Assembly (NCBI RefSeq): GCF_000013205.1
Contig: NC_007775.1
Location: forward strand, 186,001 to 250,000
Direction: 5' to 3'
Length of the DNA: 64,000 bases
From: Synechococcus sp. JA-3-3Ab
GTDB taxonomy: Bacteria; Cyanobacteriota; Cyanobacteriia; Thermostichales; Thermostichaceae
Shown here: positions 8,111 through 64,000 of the stretch, one piece after another
Numbering within the stretch: the first letter of the stretch is position 1
How the letters are laid out: the number at the start of each line of letters is the position of its first letter
Program-made: the position numbers and the translations under genes
The notes under the pieces: generated by a model
What the model saw: the letters and a program-made list of their open reading frames with translations, nothing else
Database searches by the model: none
Told to the model about the DNA's origin: nothing

Positions 8111-9700
8111 ATGGAGACTGCCGGGATCGTTGGCGTTAGCGGTGCGGAGCCTTCTCTAGGCCAATTGCTCAACCAAGCCGGGATCCAACCCCAGGTGGTT
8201 CAGGGATCCCTAGAGGGCGTGCAGGTCAGGGGTCTGTGTGCCGATTCGCGCCAGGTGCAGGCTGGGGATCTCTTCTTGGGCATGCCGGGATCCCGCGTTG
8301 ACGGCGGCGAGTTTGTCCGCGAGGCGCTCACCCGAGGAGCCGTGGCGGCCCTTATTGCCCAGGAGGCTTGGGAGAAAGTTAGCGGAGAGGCTGGAGGAGG
8401 CAGTCAGCCCATTCTGGTTTTGCCCCGCAGCGGCATCAACAGGGCCCTGGCCCAGGTGGCGGCGGCCTTCTACGGCTTTCCCGCCCGCCAGCTTACCCTG
8501 GTGGGAGTTACCGGCACCAACGGCAAGACCACCACCACCCATCTCATCGAGCATCTGCTGCAGGCCGCCGGTCGCCCCACTGCTTTGCTGGGCACCCTCT
8601 ACAACCGCTGGCCTGGGCACTGTGAAGTAGCCCCCCACACCACCCTGTTTCCGCTGGAGCTGCAGCGCAGCCTGAGACAAGCCAAAGAAGCCGGGGCGGA
8701 GGTGGCGGTGATGGAGGTCAGCTCCCATGCCTTGGCCCAGGATCGGGCCTGGGGGTGTAGCTTTGCCGCTGCCGTCTGGACCAACCTCACCCAGGATCAC
8801 CTGGATTTCCACGGCAGCATGGAAAACTACTGGCAGGCCAAGGCCACCCTCTTCCAGCCGGAGTACTTGCAGGGGCGGGCGGTGGTCAACGCCGACGACG
8901 AGGGGGGACGGCGGCTGCTTGAGACCATCCCAGCCTCTCTGGAGCCCTGGGCCTATTCCCTGCAGCCCCTGGAAGGGATCCCTGCCCTCTGGCCCGGCGA
9001 CGTTCAAGTTCACCCCAACGGCCTGCAGGCCACCCTGCACACCCCTCTGGGCACCTTGGCCGTGGCAGCGCCCCTGGTGGGATCCTTCAACCTGGCCAAC
9101 CTGCTGGCGGCGGTGGGGGTGGCGCTGCACCTGGGGATCCCCCTTGAGCTCATCCAGGCGGCCCTGCCCCATTTTCCCGGGGTGCCGGGGCGGATGGAGC
9201 GGGTAACCTTGCCGGGGCAGGACATCACGGTAATCGTGGACTATGCCCACACCCCCGATGGGCTGGAGAACTTGCTCAAGGCCCTGCGCCCGCAAGTGCA
9301 AGGCCGGCTGATCTGCGTCTTTGGCTGTGGCGGGGATCGGGATCGGGGCAAACGCCCACAGATGGGCCGCATTGCCGCCACCTGGGCCGACCGGGTGGTG
9401 GTGACCTCGGATAACCCCCGCACCGAGGATCCACAGCAGATCTTGCAGGATATCCTGGCCGGGATCCCTGGATCCCCCTGGGCGGTGGAGGTGGATCGGC
9501 GCCAAGCCATCCGCCTGGCCATCCTAGAGGCCCAGCCGGGCGATACGGTGGTGATTGCCGGCAAAGGCCACGAGGACTACCAGATCCTGGGCAGGGAGAA
9601 AATCCACTTCGACGACCGAGAAGAAGCCCGTGCCGCCCTCGCCCTACGCCTCTGCTCCCCTCTCCCTTTGGGAGAGGGGCTGGGGGTGAGGGGCGGCTAA
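8111..9700 (+). CDS. murE: UDP-N-acetylmuramoyl-L-alanyl-D-glutamate--2,6-diaminopimelate ligase
   Basis: 529 residues from ATG 8111, which has GAGAGG five bases upstream; GTG 8099 is an in-frame alternative. MurE adds the third peptide-stem residue of peptidoglycan in the cytoplasm. The N-terminal domain has [18 protein letters not shown], the central domain the ATP loop [11 protein letters not shown], and the C-terminal domain the DNPRTEDP motif, which selects meso-diaminopimelate over lysine. The last 16 residues or so ([14 protein letters not shown]) come from a copy of the CCCTC palindromic repeat, which also supplies the stop. The stop overlaps that of convergent carA by two bases. Confidence 0.96.
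9655..9693. repeat. CCCTC palindromic repeat, copy 1 (in murE 3' end)
   Basis: Inverted repeat CCTCTCCCTTTGGGAGAGG followed by GGCTGGGGGTGAGGGG. It is in frame with murE and encodes its C-terminal residues, and lies in the convergent murE/carA junction, where it could also act as a bidirectional RNA hairpin. Confidence 0.85.
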
Positions 9701-10884
9701 CGCGAGCGGTTTTGCAGCATCAGCTCGACAAACTCCCGAAAGAGGTGGTCGGCATCGTGGGGGCCGGGGCTGGCTTCCGGGTGGTACTGCACCGAAAAGA
9801 GGGGCAACTGGCGGTGGCGGATCCCGGCCACGGTGCGGTCATTGAGGTTGAGGTAGCTGATCGCCACCCCATCCCCAGGGAGCGAAGCGGCCTCCACCGC
9901 AAAGCCGTGGTTTTGGCTGGTGATCTCCACTTCCTTCTCCAGCCCACAGGGGTGGTTGAGGCCGCGGTGGCCGAACTTGAGCTTGTAGGTGGATCCGCCC
10001 AGGGCCAGGCTGAGGATCTGGTGGCCTAGGCAGATGCCGAACATCGGCTTCCCGCTCTGCAGCAGCGCCTGGGTGGTGCGGATGGCCGTCGTCTCTGCCG
10101 CCGGATCCCCCGGCCCGTTGGAGAGGAGGATCCCGTCGGGGTTGTAACTCAAAATCTCCTCGGGGCTGGCGTGGGCCGGCAACACCATCACCCGGCAGCC
10201 GTAGCGGGCCAGGCGGCGCAAGATGTTGCGCTTGATGCCAAAATCCAGCGCCACCACCCGCAAGGGGGGATCCGGAATCGGGATCCCTTGGCTGCGGCCA
10301 TAGTCCCAGTCGGCGGGGGTGGGCTCCAGCCACTCGTAGGGCTTAGGGGTTGTTACCTCTGCCACCAGGCTCAGCCCCTGCATGGAAGGGGCCTGGCGCA
10401 CCCGCTCCAGCAACGCCTGCGGATCCAGGATCTCCGTCGAGATGGCCCCATTCATCACCCCCTGGGAGCGCAGCCGCCGCGTCAGGGCCCGCGTGTCCAC
10501 CCCAGCAATGCCCGGGATCCCGTGCCCTTTTAGATATTCAGGCAGGGTTCCTGTGGCCCGCCAGGAGCTGGCCAGGCGCGACACGTTGCGGGCGATGATC
10601 CCGGCGGCCTGGGGCCGGGCCGACTCCTGATCCAGCTCGTTGATCCCGGTGTTCCCCAACTCCGGGCAGGTGAACGTGATCAACTGCCCCCGATAGCTTG
10701 GATCGGTAATCACCTCCTGGTAGCCGGTCATGCCCGTGTTGAACACCACCTCCCCCACCGCCGTGCCTGGCGCCCCAAACGACCAGCCGGGGAAGGCGGT
10801 GCCATCGGCCAGCACCAACAGAGCCGGCTGCCGAGCGTGCCAGGGGAAGACTTTTTCCGGAGCTTCAAGAGTTGAGGAGACCAT
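9697..10884 (-). CDS. carA: Carbamoyl-phosphate synthase small subunit
   Basis: 395 residues from ATG 10884 ([13 protein letters not shown]). A longer frame from 10944 begins inside a CCCTC repeat and adds [10 protein letters not shown]-type residues, so it is rejected as a start. CarA hydrolyses glutamine and channels ammonia to CarB for arginine and pyrimidine synthesis. The N-terminal domain has [21 protein letters not shown]. The class I amidotransferase domain has the nucleophile Cys in FGICLGHQ and the His/Glu pair in [11 protein letters not shown]. It lies about 100 bases downstream of the pseudopilin genes on the same strand, separated by a repeat copy, so co-transcription is uncertain. 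Confidence 0.97.
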
Positions 10885-10902
10885 AACCTGTGAACCTAGA
10901 CA

Positions 10903-10941
10903 ACCCCCCTCTCCCAAAGGGAGAGGGGCTGGGGGTGAGGG
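10903..10941. repeat. CCCTC palindromic repeat, copy 2
   Basis: CCCCTCTCCCAAAGGGAGAGGGG then CTGGGGGTGAGGG, between carA and the gspH-like gene. The 11-bp stem could end transcripts coming from the pilin cluster, although no T-run follows. Confidence 0.85.
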
Positions 10942-10980
10942 CAATGGACCGGGATCGGCAGCCTGCCTATCCTACCCCAA

Positions 10981-11541
10981 CTAGACCTCCTCCGGCTCGT
11001 TGGCCACGTTGCCACACTCGGGGTTGTTGTCCTTGCGCAGGGTGCCGATCAACGTGCTCACCACCACGCAGCGGTTCTCGCCTTGGGAGTAGGTGCTGCT
11101 GACTACAAAGCGCCCCAACTGACGCGCCCGCCCCTCCGAGTCGAAAACGGCCCTTCCGCCGTTGAAGGTATTGCTGACAGTAACAAAATTATTCAGGCGC
11201 ACCCACTGGCAAGGGGTGGGCTCATCGCAAAGGCCCTCCTCGTCCTGGATCACCAGCGTGGGGACATTGGGATCTGAGTTATCGATCCCGACCACCCAAG
11301 CGCGGCCCTGGAGAGAGGCTCTGGCGTTGGTGCGGGCGGTGCGCAGGGCTCGCTCCACCTTGTTTTGCGCGTCCTCCAGTTGGATGCGCGCCCAGATGTT
11401 GATCCCGGAGGGGACGGCCAGCCCGGCCAGAATGCCGATAATAACCACCACCGCCAGGACTTCTACCAGCGTAAAGCCCAGGGATCGAAGCGGCTGAGCT
11501 CGGCCAATTGTTTTTTTCTCCAAGGCCAACATACTGGACAT
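10981..11541 (-). CDS. GspH/FimT-type pseudopilin
   Basis: 186 residues with a type III (prepilin) signal: a short basic leader, then cleavage before Phe in LGFTLVEVLAVVVIIGILAGLAVP. The Glu at +5 of the mature protein (FTLVE) is conserved for pilin assembly. The hydrophobic helix is followed by a polar helix (EDAQNKVERALRTARTNA) and a beta-rich domain, the GspH/FimT layout. Minor pseudopilins of this kind prime or cap type IV pili and related secretion filaments. It starts five bases after the preceding pseudopilin gene ends, so the two share an operon. Cleavage would need PilD, which is not in the window. Confidence 0.82.
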   Translation of the reverse strand: MSSMLALEKKTIGRAQPLRSLGFTLVEVLAVVVIIGILAGLAVPSGINIWARIQLEDAQNKVERALRTARTNARASLQGRAWVVGIDNSDPNVPTLVIQDEEGLCDEPTPCQWVRLNNFVTVSNTFNGGRAVFDSEGRARQLGRFVVSSTYSQGENRCVVVSTLIGTLRKDNNPECGNVANEPEEV

Positions 11542-11546
11542 TCCCC

Positions 11547-12674
11547 CTAGGAGAGCTGACGGTTGATAACGCCGCGGGCAAGAACCAGTGTTTGCATTGG
11601 CAGCAAGTAGCGCGACACCTCTGAGATATCGACGCTGGTGGCATTTCGGATGTAGCGACGGAAAAGGCCAGGGTTGGCCCGCTCCATGGCCGTGGCGGTG
11701 ATGTTGATGATCACATCCTGCGGTCGGTCAGCGCCGACGCTTTGCCGCACGCAGACATAGAAGCCCACGTCGTTTTGGTTATCTTCCAGCTCTGGGAAGG
11801 TGACGCCGTTGGGCCTGCCGCCACCAAAGGCATAGCCCTGCGGGCAAGCGGGCGCAACCTGCGGACTTCCCTCTCGGCTGCTGAAGATGTTGGAGACTAG
11901 AGTTGTCAGGCGGGGGCCATCTGTCCTGCCGGCAATCGGGATCTGGCGTGCTCGGGCCTGCTCGGAAGGCCAAGCGAGAAAACCATCTCGGAAAGGATCG
12001 GGATCTTCGACAAAGAACGGGCTGCGCCCGGCGCAGTCGTTGTTCCCCTGCCTTGCAAAAGGTCTCAGCTCAAAACGCTCGATCCGCGCGTTGCCTTCCC
12101 AAGGGGTTGTCGAACCATCCGCCAAGTTGCCGGCGTTGTTGTAGTTGCGGCGCAGGTAATACACCACCAAGGTGTAGATGCCGCGGCGGCTGAGCAGCGT
12201 TTCCCAATCCGCATTTCTGCCGTTCTGGTCGCGCGGGAACCCATCAGGTGGTTGGTTGGGCAATCTAGCACGGCCTTCGCGAATCTGTTGCAAGGTGGGG
12301 TTGCCCGCGTAGCATCCCTGCGGGATCGGCTCCAGCTTCCAAAAGGCGACAACCGGGATAGCGCCCGCGGGTTGGCGGATCCAGCCGGGGGTGTAAAGCC
12401 GCTGGATAACATCCGGGATCCCGTCTCCATTGGGTTGTTCGGTGTCGTTGTAAATGTAGAGAGCCTCCGCCAGATCCTGCTGGATATATTCCATGGCTTG
12501 GGTCAGCTCCGCCTGCACCTGGGTGCGCCCTGTCTCCTCCCGATCCAGCCGCATCGTCTCGACGACGATCATCCCTGTGGCCAGGAGAAAGATGGAGGCA
12601 ATCAGCAGCGAGACCAACAACTCAATGAGGGTAAACCCTCTGCTGGCTCGGCGGCGAAAACTCTTGAAAACCAT
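11547..12674 (-). CDS. PilW-like pseudopilin, HpsC-like
   Basis: 375 residues from ATG 12674; an upstream TTG at 12698 is open but has no advantage. The prepilin signal is RRRASRGFTLIELLVSLLIASIFLLATGMIV, with Glu at mature +5. The long extracytoplasmic domain is rich in Asn, Pro and Arg, as in PilW-family minor pilins. In filamentous cyanobacteria the hormogonium polysaccharide locus encodes pseudopilins HpsB and HpsC next to HpsA; the order and sizes here agree. The HpsC name is from layout and general features, so I leave the symbol blank. Confidence 0.75.
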   Translation of the reverse strand: MVFKSFRRRASRGFTLIELLVSLLIASIFLLATGMIVVETMRLDREETGRTQVQAELTQAMEYIQQDLAEALYIYNDTEQPNGDGIPDVIQRLYTPGWIRQPAGAIPVVAFWKLEPIPQGCYAGNPTLQQIREGRARLPNQPPDGFPRDQNGRNADWETLLSRRGIYTLVVYYLRRNYNNAGNLADGSTTPWEGNARIERFELRPFARQGNNDCAGRSPFFVEDPDPFRDGFLAWPSEQARARQIPIAGRTDGPRLTTLVSNIFSSREGSPQVAPACPQGYAFGGGRPNGVTFPELEDNQNDVGFYVCVRQSVGADRPQDVIINITATAMERANPGLFRRYIRNATSVDISEVSRYLLPMQTLVLARGVINRQLS

Positions 12675-12730
12675 AGGGAAACACCCCCATCTTCTCAACA
12701 GGTTTTGCGGGAAGGAACTTAGGCTCTACC

Positions 12731-13495
12731 TCACGGTGCAACAGGATTAACAGGCAGGGGGAAAGCCCGGCACCTCTCGACGGGATCCTCACCTCTGGCG
12801 ATGGCTATCTGCCGGCAAACATCTCCCAAGTTGGCGGCGGGGTTGACTTCTACAAACGAGGCGGCCATGGGAAAGAGCCAGACATCGGCATTGGCCAAGT
12901 TCTGGTTGGCCGAAACCACCTCCGCCCTCAAGCCAGGCAGCGCTCGGCGAGTGTTTGGATCAAAAGAAAAGCGGTGGTAAACCCTCACACCCATGAGAAA
13001 GCTGCAGGGCACTCCCGCGATGATCTCATTTTGGCGCCGGTCGATGCAGGGTGCCCCCTCGTCGCGGAAGGTTTGGATGACGTACTCTTCCGGATTCCGC
13101 CCCGGCACTTGAACTTGGGCCAGGCGAAGAGAATACCTGTCTCTGTGCATGTAGTTGCCGGCATTTGCATCGGCGGGCATTTCGTCAGGGGGTGGGGTGT
13201 CTGCCAGCGGGTCGGCTCCTACCATAGGCAGTTGGGCCAACCGAACTGGATCCTGAAAAGCCCTTGGAGCAGCAGCCAGCTCGATATCCACCAGGGTGCG
13301 GATGCGATCCACCTCCTCCTGGGCCAGGCGATTGGCCAGCTCCACCCGCTCGCTCATGGCCCGCCGGTAGGCAACTAAGGTAAGGGCAGGGGCAAGAGCA
13401 GCCATGGCCAGGGCCACGAGGACGACCGAAGCCAAGACTTCAATGAGGGTGAAACCCTCCGCTTGGTGTTGCTGCCAAAGCCGCCACTTGTTCAT
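12731..13495 (-). CDS. PilV-like pseudopilin, HpsB-like
   Basis: 254 residues with prepilin signal EGFTLIEVLASVVLVALAMAALAPAL and Glu at mature +5. A helical stalk (RVELANRLAQEEVDRIRTLV) leads into a globular domain with two well-separated cysteines (APCIDRR and GVPCSFLMG) that could form a disulphide outside the cytoplasm. It lies between the HpsA-like gene (57 bases upstream) and the PilW-like gene (56 bases downstream), all on the minus strand. The position is that of hpsB in filamentous cyanobacteria. Confidence 0.75.
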   Translation of the reverse strand: MNKWRLWQQHQAEGFTLIEVLASVVLVALAMAALAPALTLVAYRRAMSERVELANRLAQEEVDRIRTLVDIELAAAPRAFQDPVRLAQLPMVGADPLADTPPPDEMPADANAGNYMHRDRYSLRLAQVQVPGRNPEEYVIQTFRDEGAPCIDRRQNEIIAGVPCSFLMGVRVYHRFSFDPNTRRALPGLRAEVVSANQNLANADVWLFPMAASFVEVNPAANLGDVCRQIAIARGEDPVERCRAFPLPVNPVAP

Positions 13496-13552
13496 GGATC
13501 CCTCCCTGCTTTGCCCCTACCTTGAATCTACCCCTGGCCGAACGGGTTGATA

Positions 13553-16500
13553 TCAGTTGAACTCATTGCAGCCGCCAATCTGGGCAGACGGATCCAACGG
13601 CACATCCGGCTGGTTCTGAAGCTCGCAGCGCAGCCGCCGCACATACGGATCCTGTGGATCCAGCTCGCGCAAGAACTCGGTGCGCGTGTTGGAGGGGAAT
13701 TGGAAGCGGGACGACACAGGGCCGGGGCGGCGGGCAATTTGCAAGCCCACGTCATAGCCGAAGCGGCGGTTGGGTGGGTAGTAGTAGTCGAAGCCCCGCA
13801 CAAAGGTTGGATCGTCTACCAGAGCGGGTGGCTCAAAGCTGTGCTGCAGGAAGGGGCCGGTAGCATAGGTGCTGTAGTTGAGCTGGATCATCGAGCCGCT
13901 GAAGAAGAGGTTGGTATTTCTCCACAGCTCGTTGAGCCGCAGGAAGTTATGCATGCCGCCGGCAGTTTGATGCAGCCGCGAGGGCAGGGTACCGCTGATG
14001 GCAGTGGCGTTCACCCGCGTTTCCCTAGCTGGCTGCAGTTGATGGTTGTTTTCGCCAGTGTCGTTGCGGCGGCGCTGGTTTACATCCGCTGAGGCCAGCT
14101 CTTGGAAGCCGGGAATGGGAATAGGCCGGCGGGTTACTTCATCCAGGATCACCCCTAGCACTGGGTTGTCCCCAGCAAAGCCAGTGGTGGGCTTGTTCAG
14201 GTCCAGGGTGAAGGGCTCCACATCCACCCACTTCAAGTCGTCATTACTGCCACCTGCGCCACCGTTGAAGTCAATTTGCACCTGGATGGTGCTGCCGTTG
14301 GGCTTGACGTAGAAGCACAGGCCATTGCGGATATCTTCACTCCCTTTGTGGTCGATGTAGTAGCCGTCCGCGTACTTGGATGCGGGGGTGTAACCCTGCG
14401 CCGCAGCATTTTTGTTGACGCGGGCGTAGGGGTTGAGCGCCATCTGGGGCTGGATCTCTAGCCCTGGCTTGTTGGGATCCAAATCAAACCCAAACAGCGG
14501 ATCCCGATCCAAAACGTTCGTCGGCTCGCCTGGATCCCAAGCGCCATTGCCGTTGAGATCCTCAAAGGTGGGATCAGCACCTCCGATGGTGCGCAACGTG
14601 CTGGGGCGGCTGGCACCGGTGTAGGCGGTGTACTTGAAGCGGTCGTTGAAGTTGGGGCGAAACACCCCCGGTACCCAGAAGCCACCGTCGGTGGGAGTGA
14701 CCTTTTCTTCTGAGTCACAGCGAACAGTTCCATTGGGATTGAGCAATCGCCGCCGCAGTTGCCGCGCCCAGTCGTCGGTGCCTAGGCTAAGAGTTCCGGA
14801 AATCGGAGAAGCACCACTCTCGGCAGGGCGAATGCCGGGTTCTTTGCTGGGGTTGGCGATCTGGCTGGAGAGCAAATTGCCTCTCAGTCCGGCGCGGGCA
14901 GCATAGGCCGGTTCGCCAAACATCCAATTGAAGGCCGCCTGCAGAGCCTCGGCAGGGTTGGGCCACTTGGGCGGCTTGGGCACTCCCGCCTTCACCTCCA
15001 GCACCGGCGAGAGCTGCGGCTGCAGAGCAATGGTTACGCCCTCGGCAGGAGCCGCAGCCACCGTATTCACGCTGATGGTCTCCGGCTCCGGATCCGCTTG
15101 GATTTCCCAGACGGGGCGCAGATCCACCGTGTTGGGCTTGGCTGCCATCCACTCGCCCAAGGGGCTCTTGGAACGAGTTTCTGGGGCAAAGGTGCTCGAC
15201 CCGCAAGGCCGACCTTGACAGGTCAAAGATTGTGTCTGCGTTGCAGTGCGCGAGCAGGTGGGGCTGCTGGTGCTGTCGATGAGGGTGCCCGTCCGGGTTT
15301 GGGTAAAGGTTTTGGTTGTGCCGCAGGCGATTTGGTCGATGACCTCATCGCAACTGGCCGGCGTCCAAGGCCCCCAGTTGTAGTTGCAGGTCTGCCGGCA
15401 GTCGACCGTCTGGGATTGCGTCTCGGTGTAGCTGGTTCCGCAAACTGCCACTGTGCAGGTGCGGCGGCGAGTTTGGGTGACTCTGGTGCCACCGTTGGCC
15501 ACCGTACACTCAGGAGTCCATTCAGACCAAGCACCGCAGGTACCCCTCGGTTGGCAGGTAACCCGTCGAGGTGTTGGTGGCTGGCCTGGGCAGCCAGCAG
15601 GCAACGTTGCTGTTTGGTCAATGGTTACAGGCTGACAGATATTGGTCGGGCAGGGGGGATTCCAGATGGGATCGCAGGTCTTGCAATGCGCCTGGTTAGA
15701 CTCAAGAGCCTTCTGAGGATCCGGCTGGCATGGCTTGTTGACCGGCGGCAGCGGCTTTAGGTAGCGCAGGTCGTAGTCTTCCCACTCGCTGCCATCGCGG
15801 GTAGCAAAGCGCAGCCGGGCGTTGCCAGTGTTTTCATAGGTTTGAATTTCTATCAAGTAGGGCGAGTCCTGGGAGGGATCCGCGCACTCCAGCTCCAATC
15901 GCAGGGCAACCTCGTTGGCGCGGCCATCTTGCCAGGCTTCGGCCCCTGCTGCGTTTGGCCCTAGGTTGAGGGGAGTTCCGTTCCAAACTCCGCGGTTCTC
16001 GAAAGTGGCATCGGAGCCGTCCCGCCGGCGAATGATCAGCCGCACACCATCATCGCCCTCGAAAATGCGGTAGGTCTGCAAGCCCGGCCAACGGGGATAC
16101 AGCTCCCCTACCCAGCGCACCACGAAAAAGTCGTTGCCGTTGTTGTTGCCAGTCGGCCCTGCCCCACTTCTACGCCGCCAGCAGGAGCGCAGGAAGTTGA
16201 AGTGACCCGGGAAGTTGAGATCATCTGCGTCGGTCAGCAGATTCGTAAAGCCATTGTTGCCATCTGGCTCTCCGCAACTAGGCATCCAGAACCAGTCGCC
16301 GCGATCCCGTCGATCGGGGCTGACAGGCGGCACCGACAAGCGGCAAAGGGGCTGCAGGATGTCAACCAATGTGCCATTGCATTCGGGGGGATTATTGTAC
16401 AGCCGCTGCTTGAAAGGCGAGTTGGAGTCTAGCGTTGTGCTGTTGCCGAAAAAGTACTGGAAGCCTCCCCACCAGGGAAAATCGCCGCCGCTGCGGGCAA

Positions 16501-19500
16501 AGCGGCCAAGGGGCCCTGAGTTGCTCGGGTCATTGATAGCATCGCGCACGCAGGCCCAGCGTTGGTTGGTGTTGGCGCTGCCCAGGTTGTCCTTGGGGGG
16601 GCAAGTGTGAGTACTGCTGGTAAAGCCGTTGTTAAACCGACCGAGGGCGTCAGGCACTCCTTGCGCCGGGAATACCGGATCGGGCCAGCGCACTGCCCGC
16701 AGGTAGGGCAGGTTGTCCCTTTGAGCCTCTTCGGCCAGGGGGCCTACGGCTCCGGTGTCCCCAAACCCTGTGTCGCGTTTGTACCGGTTCTGCGGGCTGG
16801 TCAGCCAGCCGTTGTAGTACTCGGCCAGCAACCCAGAGCCGCCGGGATCCGGGCAGGGTCCCAGCGGAGCCACCAGCACCCAGCGGGAGGTATCCAGCAC
16901 CGGGTTGCCCAAAGCCGAAATGCGGGTGCCGAAGTTGGCATAGCCCACATCGGGTGCCCGCAAGGGCCGCACTGCCGGCACGCCACCGCCCGCCGTTCTG
17001 TCATCGTTATTGGGATCCGAATCGGCGTTGTTGAAGGGAGCCAGAATGGTGTCGCGGGCAAACACATCCGGCCAACCCGGTTGGTTGGTATTGTCGCCCA
17101 GGTTCTGGGCCCCGTTCGTGTTGTCGAAGCGCAGGACACCAGCACCATCTCTGTCGGGATCCGGAGCCGGCCAGTTGTTGCCGCGGATCACCAGCGCTTG
17201 GTTGAGGAAGGAGGTGTTGAATCCCAGGTTATCCCTGTCGTTCTCACCCCTGAGACAGCCGTAGTAATCCCACCGCCGAGGGGCTGATGCCCGCCCACCG
17301 TTGTAGTCCTGCCCGGGGTCGTAGTTAACGCCGCCGCCATTGAGGGTGCCATCCTGGACAAAGGCATCGTCGATGCTGCCATCGCAGAAATCGGCAGAGA
17401 GGATGTTCACCGCGTCGCCCAAGACCTCGCTGGGCCGCCAGAGATCCTCCGCCGCCCGGGCAAAGCGCCGGTCTTCCCGGTTTTCATTGGGTCCGGATCG
17501 CAGCCGCCCGTAGAAGTTTCTGTAGAGGCCAGTTTGCGGGTCGAACTCAAGGAGGGTGGTGAACTCCTCTAGCCGTCTCCCGTCCCTTGTCTGATGCAGG
17601 TTGAAGTCTCCTTGGATGTAGACGGGGTTATCAGAAACAAAGGAGAGACCAAAGACAGCTTCATCGAGGTTAAACCCGCCGCGGGCCAGCCTTGCTCCAT
17701 TGCGCAGCCGGAAGCCGTAGGGCCGCCGATCCGGATCGGCATAGTAGTCCACCGGTTTGGGGCTGAGTCCACCTGGATCGGAAACAGGGGGATCCCAGAC
17801 CGTTTGGCCATTGGCCGTGCCGCGACCCGGCTGGCCGGCGTTCATAATACCGGCGCTGCCCAAGTCACCGCTGGCATAGTCACTGCTGGCATTTCTGTTG
17901 CGCCAGCTGGTTAGGTAGCTATCAAAAGTGCCCAAGGGCGGGCGGGCAATGGCATCCTCCCGTACCGCATCTTCCCGGAAGGCGTAGAAAATGCCACCCT
18001 CGCGGCCTTCTTGCACACCGGCAGGCAGCCAAGTATCTCGCCAAGTATCTCCGTTGATCAACCCGTTGGCCTGTCCGTTGACGTTGTTGGTCAGCAGGGC
18101 CAGGTCGATGTTGAGGGTCCGCACCGCCATTGCCTCGCGGCCATCGTAAAAGACAGAATCTTTAAAGGGCACGCGGTAGCACTGGTTGCCAATCCGAATG
18201 AGATCAAATTGGTTGCTATTGGGGCCAGCAGCAGTGCAATTGGCTGGGGCATAGGGCAAAGCCCAGTTGCCAATTCCAGAACGGGGCTCCAGAGCAACCT
18301 CGTTTAAGTTGGTTACAGCCTGATAGCTGACTGTGCTCGGAAGGAAGGAGTAAGCGCTGCGCCGCTCCGTTTCCAGGGTATCCGTCTGGTTGAAACTGGT
18401 GGTCGGGAAGATGTAGCGCAGCGGCAGATAAAACCGATTGGCCGCCTCTCGGTTCCCAGCTCGGCTGGCTTGAATGTCGTTCCAGAGGGTTTGAGCCGCT
18501 GGATCCCCGGCATTGGCGGCCGCCTCAATGCGGAGCATGTTGTCGGCCAGCATGCCCAACATGCAGCCTGCCGTTTGCAGTGTCGATTGATCCGCCAAGC
18601 TGAGGTTTGTCGGGTTTTCAATGATTCGCCGCAGCTCCGAGAAGTTGCCAAAAGCCGTAATAAACGGATCCGGGTGAATGCGGCCCGCTTGTTGCTTGGG
18701 TGGATAGGCCCCGTCAGGATCGCCGGCAAAATTGGCCAGGTTGGTGAGGGCCGTCCACAAGGAGGTGCCCGGAGCTAGCCGAGCCTGCATCGGGGTTGGG
18801 TCATACTCCCAAACGTTGGTGCCCTCTCCAGTAAAGAAGTTGATGCCCAGTTGAGTACGCTGGTCGCCGGTAGGGAAGGTGGAAGCCCGCTGCAAGCTCC
18901 AGGGAGAGCCGGGGTGGGCTACCGTGGCCAGGCAAGCAATGGGGAAGCGCCCATCTCGGTGGCTGTAGTGGTAAACGGCTGTAGCCTGCACCGCCGCTGG
19001 GTTATCTCGCAGGGTTAGCCGTTGCCGCGCCTCGTTGCTGATGAAAATGGCCTGTAACTTGGTGGGATCGTTGGGATCCCCAGGCAGCACCAAAGGCAAA
19101 GGCAAAGAATCGGTGCGGGTTAGCTCCAGCCGCTGGCCCACGATCACCCGCAGACCTTCCACACGGGCCCGCCGCTCCCAATAGCCATCCAAGCCCACCT
19201 CGGAAAGGGCGCCTGGGGGTGGGTTGTCCTCGGTTAGAGATTCCCCCTGGTTGTTCCTGGCATCGGGAGGAATGGGATCACCGGCCTTAGCACGATACCT
19301 TTGCGCAAAGGTGTCCACGTCGCAGCCTCTCTGCGGGTCAGGAGTTACAGGCGGACGGTCGTAGCTGGCTTTGGGGCCAAAGCGGTTGTCAGCCCGATAG
19401 ACATCGTCTACATAGGGAGGGCAGACCTGGTCGGCACCAGCCTGAAAACCACCGGCCTTGATCCGCCCAGGGCTGCGAGGGTTCTTGGCGTTGAGAGGAG

Positions 19501-20794
19501 ATTTTGCCCATTCTCCTGCATCTTGCTGGTAATTCCCTCGGGGGCGGATGCGGCCAAAAAGGTGCAGCTCCAGCGGATCCAGGGCCACACTTTCCGGCTC
19601 TACCCCGTTTTGCACCGAGTCAGAGTTCAGGTTGTTTAGCTTAGGAGGCGGCTCGTTGGGCGGCACATCCGCCACGCCAGGGTGGGCATCGAAACTGAGA
19701 GAGTCGCTCACCCGCTGGCCGGCGTAGCCAATGGCTCCTGCCACCAGCTCCCCGAAGGCCGTAATCTCCGAGTTATCTGCAGGCATGTAGAAGCAGGATT
19801 CCTGGGAGCTGATCAGGAAAGCCCGGAACAAGTTGTTGGGGGCATAGCGGAAAAAGAGGCTGCCGCCGGCGTAGATGGCGCCGTTCCAGTTGTAGCCGGG
19901 GGTGAAAAAGAACTCTACATCGCCGCGGCTAAAGATCCCCCACTTGTTGAGCAGATCGCGCTTGCGATCCTGCTGGAATTGCAAAGCCGAGATGGCGCGG
20001 GTGGTGGAGTCGGCCCCTTGAATGGGCAAGGTGACCGCGAAGACCTGGAAAGGCTTGTACAGCGCCGATCCCACCTGGAACCAGTCTCCCACGTTGGGGT
20101 TGATCGTCTGCTGAAGGGGGTTATCGTTGCAGCCAGCCAAGGCCGAGCCCTGCAGGGGGCCACTGCGGATCATCAGGCGCCGCGCCCGCTCCGTATCCGT
20201 TAGCCGGCTGTCCTCAAAGTCCCTGCCGCCGGCCCGACGGGTGTTGAGAATGGTGTAGGCAGTTACGGAGTCGTCGACGCCGTTGTTGTCGGTGTCCACC
20301 AAAAACCACCAGGCCGGCGCCCGCACCGGCACGGGCAGGGTTTGCCCGGGGTTGTTGGGATCCTCTACCTCGATGTTGGTTGTAATTACGAACTGGGTTT
20401 CATCGGGGAGGATGTAGGGATCGTTCTCATCCCGCGGGATCAGCTCTCCCGCCCCATCGTTAATCAAAGCCTCAACCAATTGGGCATCGGTGGGGTTGCT
20501 TGCGGGCAGGCGGGGATCGCGTATCAGGTAGTCGATCTTGGCCCGTGCCCGGTCGATGGCGGCGTTCAGTTGCCGGCTAACCGTCTGCCCCGCCCGTTCC
20601 ACCTGGGTTTGGATGTTGCGCTGGGTGGAGCGGGTCAGCAGGCCCACCGTGACCAAGCTCAACACCAGCACAATTAAGATGGCGACCGGCAGCACAAAGC
20701 CGCGCTCGCGGATCCTGCGCCGATCCACCGGGATCTTCAGAGAGCTGAGCAGGCGCAGGGCAAGTTTGAGCAACAGCGGGGAAGGAGCAGACAT
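13553..20794 (-). CDS. Giant HpsA-like surface protein with PilX-type N-terminus, PA14 and TSP1-like segments
   Basis: 2413 residues. A PilX-like signal and helix (RERGFVLPVAILIVLVLSLV, about residues 28-55) is followed by IDRARAKIDYLIRDPRLPAS, a block I recognise from hormogonium polysaccharide protein HpsA. A calcium-type loop DTDNNGVDD is near residue 165. About residues 1318-1680 look like a PA14 domain opened by a long insertion: LLAEYYNGW at the start, then VRWVGELYP and FEGDDGVRLII 240 residues later. Two Cys-rich thrombospondin-1-like modules follow near 1753-1860 (CGAWSEWTPEC and CNYNWGPWTPASC). A DLNGNGAWDPGE loop is near 2075. The C-terminus has the HpsA-type GGMHNFLRLNELW and FFSGSMIQLNYSTYATG. 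It probably acts at the cell surface in polysaccharide secretion or gliding. It is longer than the HpsA proteins I know. Confidence 0.8.
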   Translation of the reverse strand: MSAPSPLLLKLALRLLSSLKIPVDRRRIRERGFVLPVAILIVLVLSLVTVGLLTRSTQRNIQTQVERAGQTVSRQLNAAIDRARAKIDYLIRDPRLPASNPTDAQLVEALINDGAGELIPRDENDPYILPDETQFVITTNIEVEDPNNPGQTLPVPVRAPAWWFLVDTDNNGVDDSVTAYTILNTRRAGGRDFEDSRLTDTERARRLMIRSGPLQGSALAGCNDNPLQQTINPNVGDWFQVGSALYKPFQVFAVTLPIQGADSTTRAISALQFQQDRKRDLLNKWGIFSRGDVEFFFTPGYNWNGAIYAGGSLFFRYAPNNLFRAFLISSQESCFYMPADNSEITAFGELVAGAIGYAGQRVSDSLSFDAHPGVADVPPNEPPPKLNNLNSDSVQNGVEPESVALDPLELHLFGRIRPRGNYQQDAGEWAKSPLNAKNPRSPGRIKAGGFQAGADQVCPPYVDDVYRADNRFGPKASYDRPPVTPDPQRGCDVDTFAQRYRAKAGDPIPPDARNNQGESLTEDNPPPGALSEVGLDGYWERRARVEGLRVIVGQRLELTRTDSLPLPLVLPGDPNDPTKLQAIFISNEARQRLTLRDNPAAVQATAVYHYSHRDGRFPIACLATVAHPGSPWSLQRASTFPTGDQRTQLGINFFTGEGTNVWEYDPTPMQARLAPGTSLWTALTNLANFAGDPDGAYPPKQQAGRIHPDPFITAFGNFSELRRIIENPTNLSLADQSTLQTAGCMLGMLADNMLRIEAAANAGDPAAQTLWNDIQASRAGNREAANRFYLPLRYIFPTTSFNQTDTLETERRSAYSFLPSTVSYQAVTNLNEVALEPRSGIGNWALPYAPANCTAAGPNSNQFDLIRIGNQCYRVPFKDSVFYDGREAMAVRTLNIDLALLTNNVNGQANGLINGDTWRDTWLPAGVQEGREGGIFYAFREDAVREDAIARPPLGTFDSYLTSWRNRNASSDYASGDLGSAGIMNAGQPGRGTANGQTVWDPPVSDPGGLSPKPVDYYADPDRRPYGFRLRNGARLARGGFNLDEAVFGLSFVSDNPVYIQGDFNLHQTRDGRRLEEFTTLLEFDPQTGLYRNFYGRLRSGPNENREDRRFARAAEDLWRPSEVLGDAVNILSADFCDGSIDDAFVQDGTLNGGGVNYDPGQDYNGGRASAPRRWDYYGCLRGENDRDNLGFNTSFLNQALVIRGNNWPAPDPDRDGAGVLRFDNTNGAQNLGDNTNQPGWPDVFARDTILAPFNNADSDPNNDDRTAGGGVPAVRPLRAPDVGYANFGTRISALGNPVLDTSRWVLVAPLGPCPDPGGSGLLAEYYNGWLTSPQNRYKRDTGFGDTGAVGPLAEEAQRDNLPYLRAVRWPDPVFPAQGVPDALGRFNNGFTSSTHTCPPKDNLGSANTNQRWACVRDAINDPSNSGPLGRFARSGGDFPWWGGFQYFFGNSTTLDSNSPFKQRLYNNPPECNGTLVDILQPLCRLSVPPVSPDRRDRGDWFWMPSCGEPDGNNGFTNLLTDADDLNFPGHFNFLRSCWRRRSGAGPTGNNNGNDFFVVRWVGELYPRWPGLQTYRIFEGDDGVRLIIRRRDGSDATFENRGVWNGTPLNLGPNAAGAEAWQDGRANEVALRLELECADPSQDSPYLIEIQTYENTGNARLRFATRDGSEWEDYDLRYLKPLPPVNKPCQPDPQKALESNQAHCKTCDPIWNPPCPTNICQPVTIDQTATLPAGCPGQPPTPRRVTCQPRGTCGAWSEWTPECTVANGGTRVTQTRRRTCTVAVCGTSYTETQSQTVDCRQTCNYNWGPWTPASCDEVIDQIACGTTKTFTQTRTGTLIDSTSSPTCSRTATQTQSLTCQGRPCGSSTFAPETRSKSPLGEWMAAKPNTVDLRPVWEIQADPEPETISVNTVAAAPAEGVTIALQPQLSPVLEVKAGVPKPPKWPNPAEALQAAFNWMFGEPAYAARAGLRGNLLSSQIANPSKEPGIRPAESGASPISGTLSLGTDDWARQLRRRLLNPNGTVRCDSEEKVTPTDGGFWVPGVFRPNFNDRFKYTAYTGASRPSTLRTIGGADPTFEDLNGNGAWDPGEPTNVLDRDPLFGFDLDPNKPGLEIQPQMALNPYARVNKNAAAQGYTPASKYADGYYIDHKGSEDIRNGLCFYVKPNGSTIQVQIDFNGGAGGSNDDLKWVDVEPFTLDLNKPTTGFAGDNPVLGVILDEVTRRPIPIPGFQELASADVNQRRRNDTGENNHQLQPARETRVNATAISGTLPSRLHQTAGGMHNFLRLNELWRNTNLFFSGSMIQLNYSTYATGPFLQHSFEPPALVDDPTFVRGFDYYYPPNRRFGYDVGLQIARRPGPVSSRFQFPSNTRTEFLRELDPQDPYVRRLRCELQNQPDVPLDPSAQIGGCNEFN

Positions 20795-20914
20795 GGCTGT
20801 ATCCCGGAGTAGGCGAGTGCCAAGATAGCAACAGTATGCAAGGGATCCCGAGTCTCAGACATCCCCACGGGTGGGGGGAAGGGACAGCCTGCTCTTTTCA
20901 GGATTCCCAAGCTT

Positions 20915-21511
20915 TTACAAAATCCCCAGTTGCTGCGCCTTGAGCAGGGCGGTGACACGGTCGCTAGCATCCAGCTTGCGGTAGGCGGCGCTGGCGTACT
21001 CTTTGACGGTTTCGATGCTCAGGCCCAGACGGCGGGCGATCTGTTTGTTGGCCAAGCCCTCTTTCATCAGTTGCAGCACACACAGCTCGCGGGGGGTGAG
21101 CTTGGGCAGCTCCTGTCGGGCAGGCAGCCAGTCTCGTTCGGGGTTGGACAAAATCTGACGGATGACGCGGGCCAATTCCGCCGGGTCGGTCTCTTTGGAA
21201 AGGTAGCCTTTGGCCCCGGCGCGGCGGGCTGCCTCAATCAGACCCGGCTCCTGAAAGGTGGTCATCATCACCACCACCACCGGCAGGCCCAGCTCGACAA
21301 TCTGCTGGCAGGCCAGGATCCCGTCTCCATCCGGCATGCGCACATCCAAAAGGGCCACCTCGACGGGGCAACGGCGGCAGTACTCAACGGCCTGGGATCC
21401 CGTCTCGGCTTCGGCCACCACCTCAAATCCTTGCGCTTGCAGGGCAAACTTTAGCCCCAGCCGAAACAGGGGATGGTCGTCGGCAATCAGAACCCGGACA
21501 GGGGAACTCAT
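20915..21511 (-). CDS. NarL/FixJ-family response regulator
   Basis: 198 residues: a receiver domain (residues 5-120) with acidic pocket ADDHP, phospho-acceptor Asp56 in ALLDVRMPDGDG and the conserved Lys in GAKGYLSKE; then a LuxR-type HTH (about 135-195, LTPRELCVLQLMKEGLANKQIARRLGLSIETVKEY). It should bind DNA as a phosphorylated dimer. No histidine kinase is in the window. The gene ends 121 bases before the HpsA-like gene on the same strand, so regulation of that cluster is plausible but unproven. Confidence 0.92.
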   Translation of the reverse strand: MSSPVRVLIADDHPLFRLGLKFALQAQGFEVVAEAETGSQAVEYCRRCPVEVALLDVRMPDGDGILACQQIVELGLPVVVVMMTTFQEPGLIEAARRAGAKGYLSKETDPAELARVIRQILSNPERDWLPARQELPKLTPRELCVLQLMKEGLANKQIARRLGLSIETVKEYASAAYRKLDASDRVTALLKAQQLGIL

Positions 21512-62399: not shown

Positions 62400-62587
62400 G
62401 CTCTTCATATCCTTTGGGAGGACAGGGATCCCTTGCTGTGGGGTAGCAGATCAAGACCTTTGGTCTTAACCCAAGTCGGTGGCAACACAATAGGTGACAA
62501 TAATTAACGGCCTCTTAACAGCCGCTGGGCTCAAGCTTGGGACGGCTGGTGCGTACGGGCAAAGTTGTTACCTACGAGATGCTCGCC

Positions 62588-64000
62588 ATGTCTGAGTTTG
62601 TCTGGTCAGAGCCTGCCCCCCTCGAGGACCTACATCTTCCCGATTGGTTGCTCACCTCGGCTCAGCGCCGCCGTCTCAAAGCTTTCCTGGTTCTGGCGAC
62701 GGTGTGGGGGCTGGTCAGCCTGATGCACCAGGTAGCGGTAGCCCGCTGGTTTACCGTTGGCCTGGCCACCTTCATGGTCATCCACATCAACCGCCTGTTC
62801 CGGCTGCAACCGGCGGCTCTGCCGCCCCCCTTGAGGCTTTACCCTCCTGGAACAATGGCCTGGGATCCCGCCGCCGCCGAAACGGCCTCCCTGCCTTTGC
62901 CTGAGGTGGGCGGGGCTCAGCCCTTAGCGCTGGCGGGTTCTCCTCTGCCGCGAGTGGCGGTGTTGATCCCGGCCAAAAACGAAAGCGCAGTGCTGCCGCG
63001 GCTGCTGCACAGCCTCACCCAGTTGGATTACCCCAGCAGCCACCTGGAGCTGTGGGCCATTGACGATGCCAGCAGCGATGCTACCCCCGACATCTTGCAG
63101 GAAGCCCAAAAGCGGATCCCTCACCTGCGAGTTTACCGACGGCCACCAGGGCGAGGAGGCGGCAAGTCTGGCGCCCTCAACGAGGTGCTGCCCCTGACGC
63201 GGGGGGAGATTATCTTGGTCTGCGACGCCGACGCCATTGTGCCTCCGGATTTGCTGACTCGCACCCTGCCGCTGTTCGGCCAGACCCCCCGCCCCGGCAG
63301 ACGGACAATCGGCGCCGTTCAGGTGCGCAAAGCCTTGAGCAACCCCAACGTCAACTTCTGGACCCTGGGCCAGGTGGCGGAGATGGCCTCCGATGCCTAC
63401 TTGCAGCAGCAGCGGGTGGCCATCCGCGGGATTGGGGAGCTGCGAGGCAACGGCCAACTGGTGCGACGGGATGTCCTGGAAAAGTGCGGCGGCTGGAACG
63501 AGAACAGCCTCACCGACGACCTGGATCTTACTTTTAAGTTGCACCTGGCGGGGGTGGATATTGCCTTTTTGACGGAGCCGGCCATCGTCGAAGAGGGAGT
63601 CACCTCTTGGAAAAGCCTTTGGCACCAGCGTTGCCGCTGGGCGGAGGGGGGCTACCAGCGCTACCTCGACTACTGGCCAGGGATCCTCAGCCGCCGCCTG
63701 GGCATGGCCAAGACAGTCGATCTCTGGGCCTTTTTCATCTCTCAGTACCTGCTGCCGATGGCCTTAGTTCCCGATACCCTCTGGGTGCTGTTGACGGGCC
63801 ACTCCTCGGTGCTGCTCCCCTTGAACGCCCTGGTCATGGGATCTGTGACGGTGGCCTTCTACCGCGGCCTGCGCCAGGTGGAGGGGCTGCGCGGGCGAAA
63901 ACTCTGGTGGCGTACGGCTCTGGGCTTGGTGTACATGCTCCACTGGCTGCCGGTCATGATCGTGACCACGGCTCGTATGTGTGTGCAGCCCAAGCGGTTG
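62588..64000 (+). CDS. GT2 glycosyltransferase, monoglucosyldiacylglycerol synthase-like, 3' end outside window
   Basis: 471 residues visible from ATG 62588; ATG 62579 and upstream GTG/TTG codons are also in frame and no binding site decides between them. Two N-terminal hydrophobic segments precede a processive GT2 domain: VLIPAKNESAVLPRLL, WAIDDASSD, CDADAIV (DXD), TDDLDLTFKLHLAG and QRCRW (the QXXRW motif). GGGKSGALNEVLPLTRGEI and VRKALSNPN match what I remember of cyanobacterial MGlcDG synthase (Sll1377), which starts galactolipid synthesis. Membrane helices follow the catalytic domain. The frame is open at the right edge. Confidence 0.82.
   Translation, partial: MSEFVWSEPAPLEDLHLPDWLLTSAQRRRLKAFLVLATVWGLVSLMHQVAVARWFTVGLATFMVIHINRLFRLQPAALPPPLRLYPPGTMAWDPAAAETASLPLPEVGGAQPLALAGSPLPRVAVLIPAKNESAVLPRLLHSLTQLDYPSSHLELWAIDDASSDATPDILQEAQKRIPHLRVYRRPPGRGGGKSGALNEVLPLTRGEIILVCDADAIVPPDLLTRTLPLFGQTPRPGRRTIGAVQVRKALSNPNVNFWTLGQVAEMASDAYLQQQRVAIRGIGELRGNGQLVRRDVLEKCGGWNENSLTDDLDLTFKLHLAGVDIAFLTEPAIVEEGVTSWKSLWHQRCRWAEGGYQRYLDYWPGILSRRLGMAKTVDLWAFFISQYLLPMALVPDTLWVLLTGHSSVLLPLNALVMGSVTVAFYRGLRQVEGLRGRKLWWRTALGLVYMLHWLPVMIVTTARMCVQPKRL

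Follow-up and report, generated by a model that had tools for sequence, protein, structure and literature searches.

A hormogonium-polysaccharide-type pseudopilin cassette in a unicellular Synechococcus as a candidate type IV pilus tip complex with a giant, modular HpsA

Introduction

The closest described counterpart of the locus analysed here is the hps locus of Nostoc punctiforme (hpsA-K), which, hpsA included, has been tied to a motility polysaccharide (PMC6495340, PMC4284469). A second group of related systems is formed by the H-I-J-K minor pilins (GspH-I-J-K; FimU-PilV-PilW-PilX), which cap and prime type IV filaments, with the K subunit, that lacks the glutamate at position +5 (Glu5), capping the tip (PMC9934059). 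For cyanobacteria, the minor pilins that make up this tip complex were described as difficult to identify (PMC12288463). Finally, some pilins are modular: PilB and PilC of Streptococcus sanguinis carry von Willebrand-type (vWA) or lectin modules, and PA14 is among the frequent modules of such proteins, so that a modular pilin with PA14 is a recognised architecture (PMC8179133).

Here we describe a four-gene cassette (A to D) of Synechococcus sp. JA-3-3Ab, found in a window of 64,000 nucleotides that corresponds to positions 186001-250000 of the single contig (2,932,766 bp) of which the examined genome consists. It shares with the Nostoc punctiforme locus the same A-B-C-D pseudopilin block and an HpsA that scores above the NCBIfam cut-off, but it differs in that neither hpsE nor another glycosyltransferase adjoins it and the genome has no HpsE, in that its HpsA belongs to a different deep clade and its HpsB and HpsC fall below their cut-offs, and in that its HpsA bears an insert of about 1,100 residues with a PA14-like module. 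As in the H-I-J-K complexes, there are four minor pilins, one bulky and without Glu5 and three small with Glu5, and likewise one secretin/ATPase machine; the K-like subunit here, however, has 2413 residues with large modules and gives no detectable match to the PilX_N or GspK profiles. The pilin-type N-terminus joined to an unrelated binding module recalls PilB and PilC of S. sanguinis, except that the module sits in an internal slot of a giant protein and not at its C-terminus. Of the PA14 lectins, RsgI3 is matched by sequence profile and Epa1 and Flo5 by a weak structural model, whereas a long internal expansion sets the present module apart from all three.

The cassette and its neighbourhood

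All genes of the cassette lie on the minus strand, as do the regulator that precedes it and the carA gene that follows it:

20915..21511, minus strand, NarL-type response regulator (Response_reg and GerE), directly upstream of hpsA
13553..20794, minus strand, A, hpsA-like gene, 2413 aa (NF038301, 511 bits), putative giant minor pilin of the tip-most K position
12731..13495, minus strand, B, PilV/GspI-type minor pilin, HpsB-like, 254 aa, G|FTLIE (NF038303, 45 bits)
11547..12698, minus strand, C, PilW/GspJ-type minor pilin, HpsC-like, 383 aa from TTG, G|FTLIE (NF038304, 94 bits)
10981..11541, minus strand, D, GspH/FimU-type minor pilin, 186 aa, G|FTLVE (N_methyl; TIGR01708 gspH)
9697..10944, minus strand, carA, downstream neighbour of D

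The first-pass annotation had placed four same-strand genes between 10981 and 21511; the four were confirmed at 10981-20794, while the upper end of that span takes in the regulator (20915-21511), which is not one of them. The start listed for C is a TTG, and an ATG is present at 12674. Since the gaps from A through B, C and D to carA are only 57, 32, 5 and 36 bases, a single transcript is possible; a scan upstream of hpsA gave no promoter-like site. The earlier observation that no hps glycosyltransferase adjoins the cassette holds, its neighbours being carA on one side and, upstream of hpsA, the regulator, a pentapeptide-repeat-like ORF and fpg on the other. The NarL-type regulator adjoins hpsA upstream in all examined family members that cover this position and was found there in none outside the family, and it is, by association, a candidate controller of the cassette.

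Two observations concern surroundings of other kinds. At the end of the window (62537-64000) a glycosyltransferase-like ORF, with a weak HpsE match of 16 bits and an out-of-frame GFTLLE pattern hit, runs off the sequence. In a Thermosynechococcus-like genome, tandem DUF2887/DUF4351 genes stand upstream of hpsA (L090:2311-6523); glycosyltransferases had been suspected there, and the four that were scanned proved to be DUF2887/DUF4351 proteins.

Family assignment and distribution among cyanobacteria

The giant protein, earlier called HpsA-like, is a bona fide member of the HpsA family, as its 511 bits exceed the curated NCBIfam cut-off of 400. When its partners were searched with the corresponding models, HpsB (E=1e-11, cut-off 150) and HpsC (E=1e-26, cut-off 200) were the best matches of B and C, yet both remained below the cut-offs. 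Protein C matches the N_methyl profile with 32.6 bits and D with 24.6 bits, the latter being best matched by N_methyl and by general pilin, GspG and GspH models (TIGR01708 gspH, E=3.6e-7). The partners are thus pseudopilins, as had been proposed: PilV/HpsB-like, PilW/HpsC-like and GspH-like prepilins. Weak matches of C and D to the Verru_Chthon cassette protein C and D models indicate that a comparable pilin cassette may exist outside cyanobacteria.

The set had been regarded as peculiar to filamentous cyanobacteria, and its distribution does not support this view: HpsA was detected in 272 of 390 cyanobacterial genomes, many of them unicellular, and in 126 of 157 genera, and the named loci include the unicellular Thermosynechococcus, Aphanothece, Chroococcus, Gloeocapsa, Prochloron and Gloeomargaritaceae. 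About 93 of the 120 homologous stretches keep the order A-B-C-D, frequently together with a second D, which argues that the arrangement is not due to chance. The flanks differ between lineages, and the A-B-C-D(-D) cassette usually stands alone. An hps-type cassette in a unicellular cyanobacterium is therefore not surprising; the unexpected features are the signature of a tip subunit and a giant, variable cargo, both described below.

A maximum-likelihood tree of HpsA (107 rows) separates an 11-row clade from a 96-row clade that holds the window protein, with an SH-aLRT value of 100, support being expressed as SH-aLRT only, without bootstrap. The smaller clade comprises Nostocales, Microcystaceae-like and other sequences, including one genome with hpsE after D, and the HpsA of the window falls outside the Nostocales clade that served to define the hps locus (SH-aLRT 100). 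In three heterocystous (Nostocales) genomes the window-type (clade-II) HpsA adjoins hpsE and is the only HpsA, so the two types look interchangeable and not paralogous; a model of a second, coexisting HpsA type was rejected for these three genomes on the same ground. Two further observations were made during this survey. In a 5.07-Mb genome of the same order (loci L105 and L106) there are two short HpsA-like proteins of about 670-700 aa, and each of their genes is accompanied by B-, C- and D-like neighbours, arranged D-B-C-A. A cyanobacterial HpsA that is sister to Hydrococcus in the tree lies on a contig (L130) with the label Candidatus Gracilibacteria, probably a mis-binned MAG contig.

The N-terminus of HpsA and the pilus machinery of the genome

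Outside its central insert, HpsA consists of conserved parts:

20522..20701, minus strand, predicted site of prepilin cleavage (G32|F33), followed by a long N-terminal alpha-1 helix, aa 35-91 (sequence; AF2; start conserved in relatives)
17345..20698, minus strand, conserved N-terminal core, aa 33-1150 (59-row alignment; AF2 pLDDT 76, pTM 0.77)
13556..14059, minus strand, conserved C-terminal core, aa 2246-2413 (matches NF038301 positions 1317-1486)

A GFVLPT-type start is conserved in 50 aligned HpsA relatives, in which the G, F and P of GF.LP are invariant. The start had been annotated as that of PilX. Profiles lend this no support, for Pfam PilX_N matched one of 50 HpsA N-termini (E=0.05), and the designation goes back to the prepilin-type motif (G|FVLPV) and the gene position. 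The N_methyl profile gave no match on HpsA, so Pfam does not see the protein as a pilin, and in a Foldseek search the AF2 model of the N core matched no PDB entry, GspK and PilX included. The residue at position +5, however, sets A apart from its partners: it is Glu in 0 of 118 homologues of A, where it is mostly Thr, as opposed to 133 of 133 homologues of D, 105 of 107 of C and 83 of 107 of B, the sites having been located by script, so that some of the 24 B ORFs without Glu5 are likely mis-sited. In the window itself B, C and D all carry Glu5. The absence of Glu5 from A, together with its almost constant presence in C and D and its presence in most B, is the pattern characteristic of the K subunit at the very tip of an H-I-J-K complex, and we infer from this pattern and from gene position, not from homology, that HpsA may be the K subunit.

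What kind of machine could such a complex serve in this genome? The N_methyl profile detected B, C, D, a single major pilin and nothing else, and the pattern GFTLxE the same four and one out-of-frame match (GFTLLE, window position 62835), with the reservation that counts resting on profile and motif searches could miss strongly divergent pilins. The genome has a single secretin, adjoined by pilM and pilN, and a single PilB, after which come PilT and PilC, and PilT occurs a second time; no second type II-like machine was seen. Proteins A-D are, as the single minor-pilin set detected, the only candidates found for the pilus tip complex. A search for PilY1 (PF05567) gave 0 matches in 390 genomes, but as no control matched either, it carries no weight.

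The cargo insert of HpsA

The two cores are separated by a slot, which in the protein of the window is filled as follows:

14060..17344, minus strand, cargo insert, aa 1151-2245 (slot sizes by alignment and flanking HMMs)
15749..16840, minus strand, PA14-like module, aa 1319-1682, expanded by an internal loop (PDB profile; Foldseek)
15197..15640, minus strand, Cys-rich WSxW/TQTRT repeats like thrombospondin type-1 repeats (TSR), about aa 1719-1866 (sequence pattern; Foldseek)

Among 79 named loci, the slot between residues 1150 and 2245 measures 1,095-1,168 aa in the genus, 717 aa in one other family member and 67-212 aa in all other complete relatives. Delimited by flanking HMMs in 139 proteins, it measures 1,110-1,200 aa in six of the six examined genomes of the genus and stays below 300 aa in almost every other member of the clade (293 aa in L095), with 238-1,376 aa in the 11-row clade. 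In a member of the Gloeomargaritaceae (L092) it holds a proline-rich insert of 726 aa in which no PA14 motif is obvious. The content of the slot varies as well: in four HpsA proteins of the other clade (L107, L030, L034, L110) it holds the ice-binding-like PF11999 (8e-18, 1.5e-13 and two weaker matches), and in one Microcystaceae-like protein a sub-threshold match to Calx-beta was obtained.

Pfam found neither PA14 nor TSR in the insert. A five-row profile of the PA14 segment, however, retrieved exactly two sequences from the PDB, both of them PA14 (the PA14 of RsgI3, 6qe7, E=4e-7; 6qdi, E=6e-5), and a profile of the whole insert also matched 6qe7 (5e-4); by profile comparison the PA14-like segment is homologous to solved PA14 domains, and sugar binding may be predicted for it. 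The WSxW/TQTRT repeats, whose content differs between strains, gave no match to PDB sequences, so the profile evidence does not extend to a thrombospondin type-1 repeat. As AF2 modelled the insert poorly (pLDDT 32), sequence profiles and this weak model are the basis of the domain calls, with Foldseek used as support only; matches of the low-confidence model included the Epa and Flo PA14 lectins, RsgI3 and the TSR of properdin (prob 0.66). HpsA combines a prepilin-type motif with a PA14 profile match, though the N_methyl profile goes undetected. What is new here is the large PA14/TSR-like insert in HpsA of the genus; the modular minor pilin itself is a known kind of protein.

The whole of HpsA is under purifying selection and the cargo is less constrained, dN/dS against the nearest strain being 0.145 in the N core and 0.136 in the C core, as compared with 0.24 in the insert, 0.31 in PA14 and 0.39 in the repeats. 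Against the sister strain L076, dS is 0.3-0.6 in many windows of the protein, while in those of PA14 (1301-1700) dN reaches 0.38-0.75 and dS 0.86 to saturation, the latter in one window. This sharp divergence of the PA14 segment suggests allele exchange or diversifying change between sister strains; windows 101-400, 1701-1800 and 2001-2200 are likewise raised, which makes exchange of the PA14 segment a reading and not a demonstration.

A proposed role at the pilus tip and its alternatives

We propose, with a probability of about 0.7, that A-D form the minor-pilin tip complex of the only type IV pilus detected in this genome, with HpsA as a giant K-type cap that carries a gripping cargo. According to this model PilD would cleave the A-D prepilins, after which D, B and C, as H-, I- and J-type minor pilins, would start the fibre, and HpsA would sit at its very tip as the cap; the complex as a whole would prime assembly. 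PilB would then add PilA, and PilT would retract the fibre. The PA14-like and thrombospondin-repeat-like head would grip mat polysaccharide or the surfaces of neighbouring cells, so that retraction by PilT would pull the cell along and result in surface motility and mat adhesion. Tip location, priming of assembly, sugar binding and a role in motility are what we infer for A-D.

In the first-pass annotation the cassette was read as a marker of a polysaccharide system and as a possible system for polysaccharide secretion or surface motility in mats. Protein A does belong to the HpsA family (NF038301), and hpsA-D of Nostoc were proposed to aid export of the hormogonium polysaccharide (HPS) via the pilus system (PMC6495340), with clade-II HpsA adjoining hpsE in three Nostocales genomes; A-D might then constitute a pseudopilus that pushes slime through PilQ, supplied by an unrelated sugar-making set elsewhere. 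Owing to the polysaccharide tie in Nostoc punctiforme such a secretion role keeps some chance, but we consider it unlikely. The genome has no HpsE (best match 52.5 bits, cut-off 300) and gave 0 matches to the Wza-type exporter Poly_export (PF02563), for which controls were positive in 4 genomes. HpsE exceeds the cut-off in 138 of 390 genomes, none of them from the family of the window; it occurs together with HpsA in 135, leaving 137 of the 272 HpsA genomes without it, and it was found in the flanks of about 7 of 120 stretches, mainly in Nostocales, the lengths of these flanks being variable, so that in most lineages no HpsE lies beside the cassette. Moreover, a 2025 review states that HPS secretion gives no propulsion force and that the Wza route may export HPS (PMC12288463). 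The data therefore do not support the cassette as a marker of a polysaccharide system, while surface motility or adhesion in mats is plausible. As the same four genes form, for the most part, a conventional minor-pilin cluster in relatives, their reading as an hps locus is largely unsupported. The earlier interpretation is thereby supported in its family assignment, its pseudopilins and its missing glycosyltransferase, and not in the restriction to filamentous species or in the polysaccharide locus.

Two other functions may be considered for a sole set of minor pilins. Transformation in other cyanobacteria needs minor pilins (PMC12288463), and the only set of the genome, if it is such, may also serve transformation; a tip complex for DNA uptake instead of an adhesin is nevertheless improbable, as a cargo with PA14-like and thrombospondin-like parts suggests binding of sugars or surfaces and nothing DNA-specific was seen. 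A type II-like pseudopilus devoted to protein secretion and with no part in surface motility is slightly more improbable still. The matches to GspG/H/J models would fit it, and HIJK sets are common to type II secretion systems and type IV pili, but one secretin, one PilB-type ATPase and one PilT pair leave no separate type II system. Thus, the tip complex of the type IV pilus is the reading that we prefer, and the cassette is probably a general pilus-tip platform and not a slime-making locus borrowed from filamentous species.

Implications

A broader reading is offered tentatively, as one that we hold to be rather less probable than not in its entirety: the HpsA family might be a common cyanobacterial pilus-tip platform, composed of giant minor pilins of the K type, each with a single exchange slot that lineages fill with heads of their own, PA14/TSR-like in Thermostichus, ice-binding-like elsewhere and possibly Calx-beta-like in Microcystaceae. 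Co-occurring mat ecotypes would diversify or swap the PA14 head, which would set what each of them sticks to, and the hps polysaccharide phenotype of Nostoc would be partly secondary to the role at the tip. Taken together, the signature at Glu5, the single cassette of the genome and the exchange slot give a concrete prediction, namely that HpsA is the tip. If this is true, about half of the genomes with HpsA carry a misleading database label in 'hormogonium polysaccharide biosynthesis protein HpsA', and the PA14-like head would offer a testable molecular basis for the attachment and movement of hot-spring mat strains.
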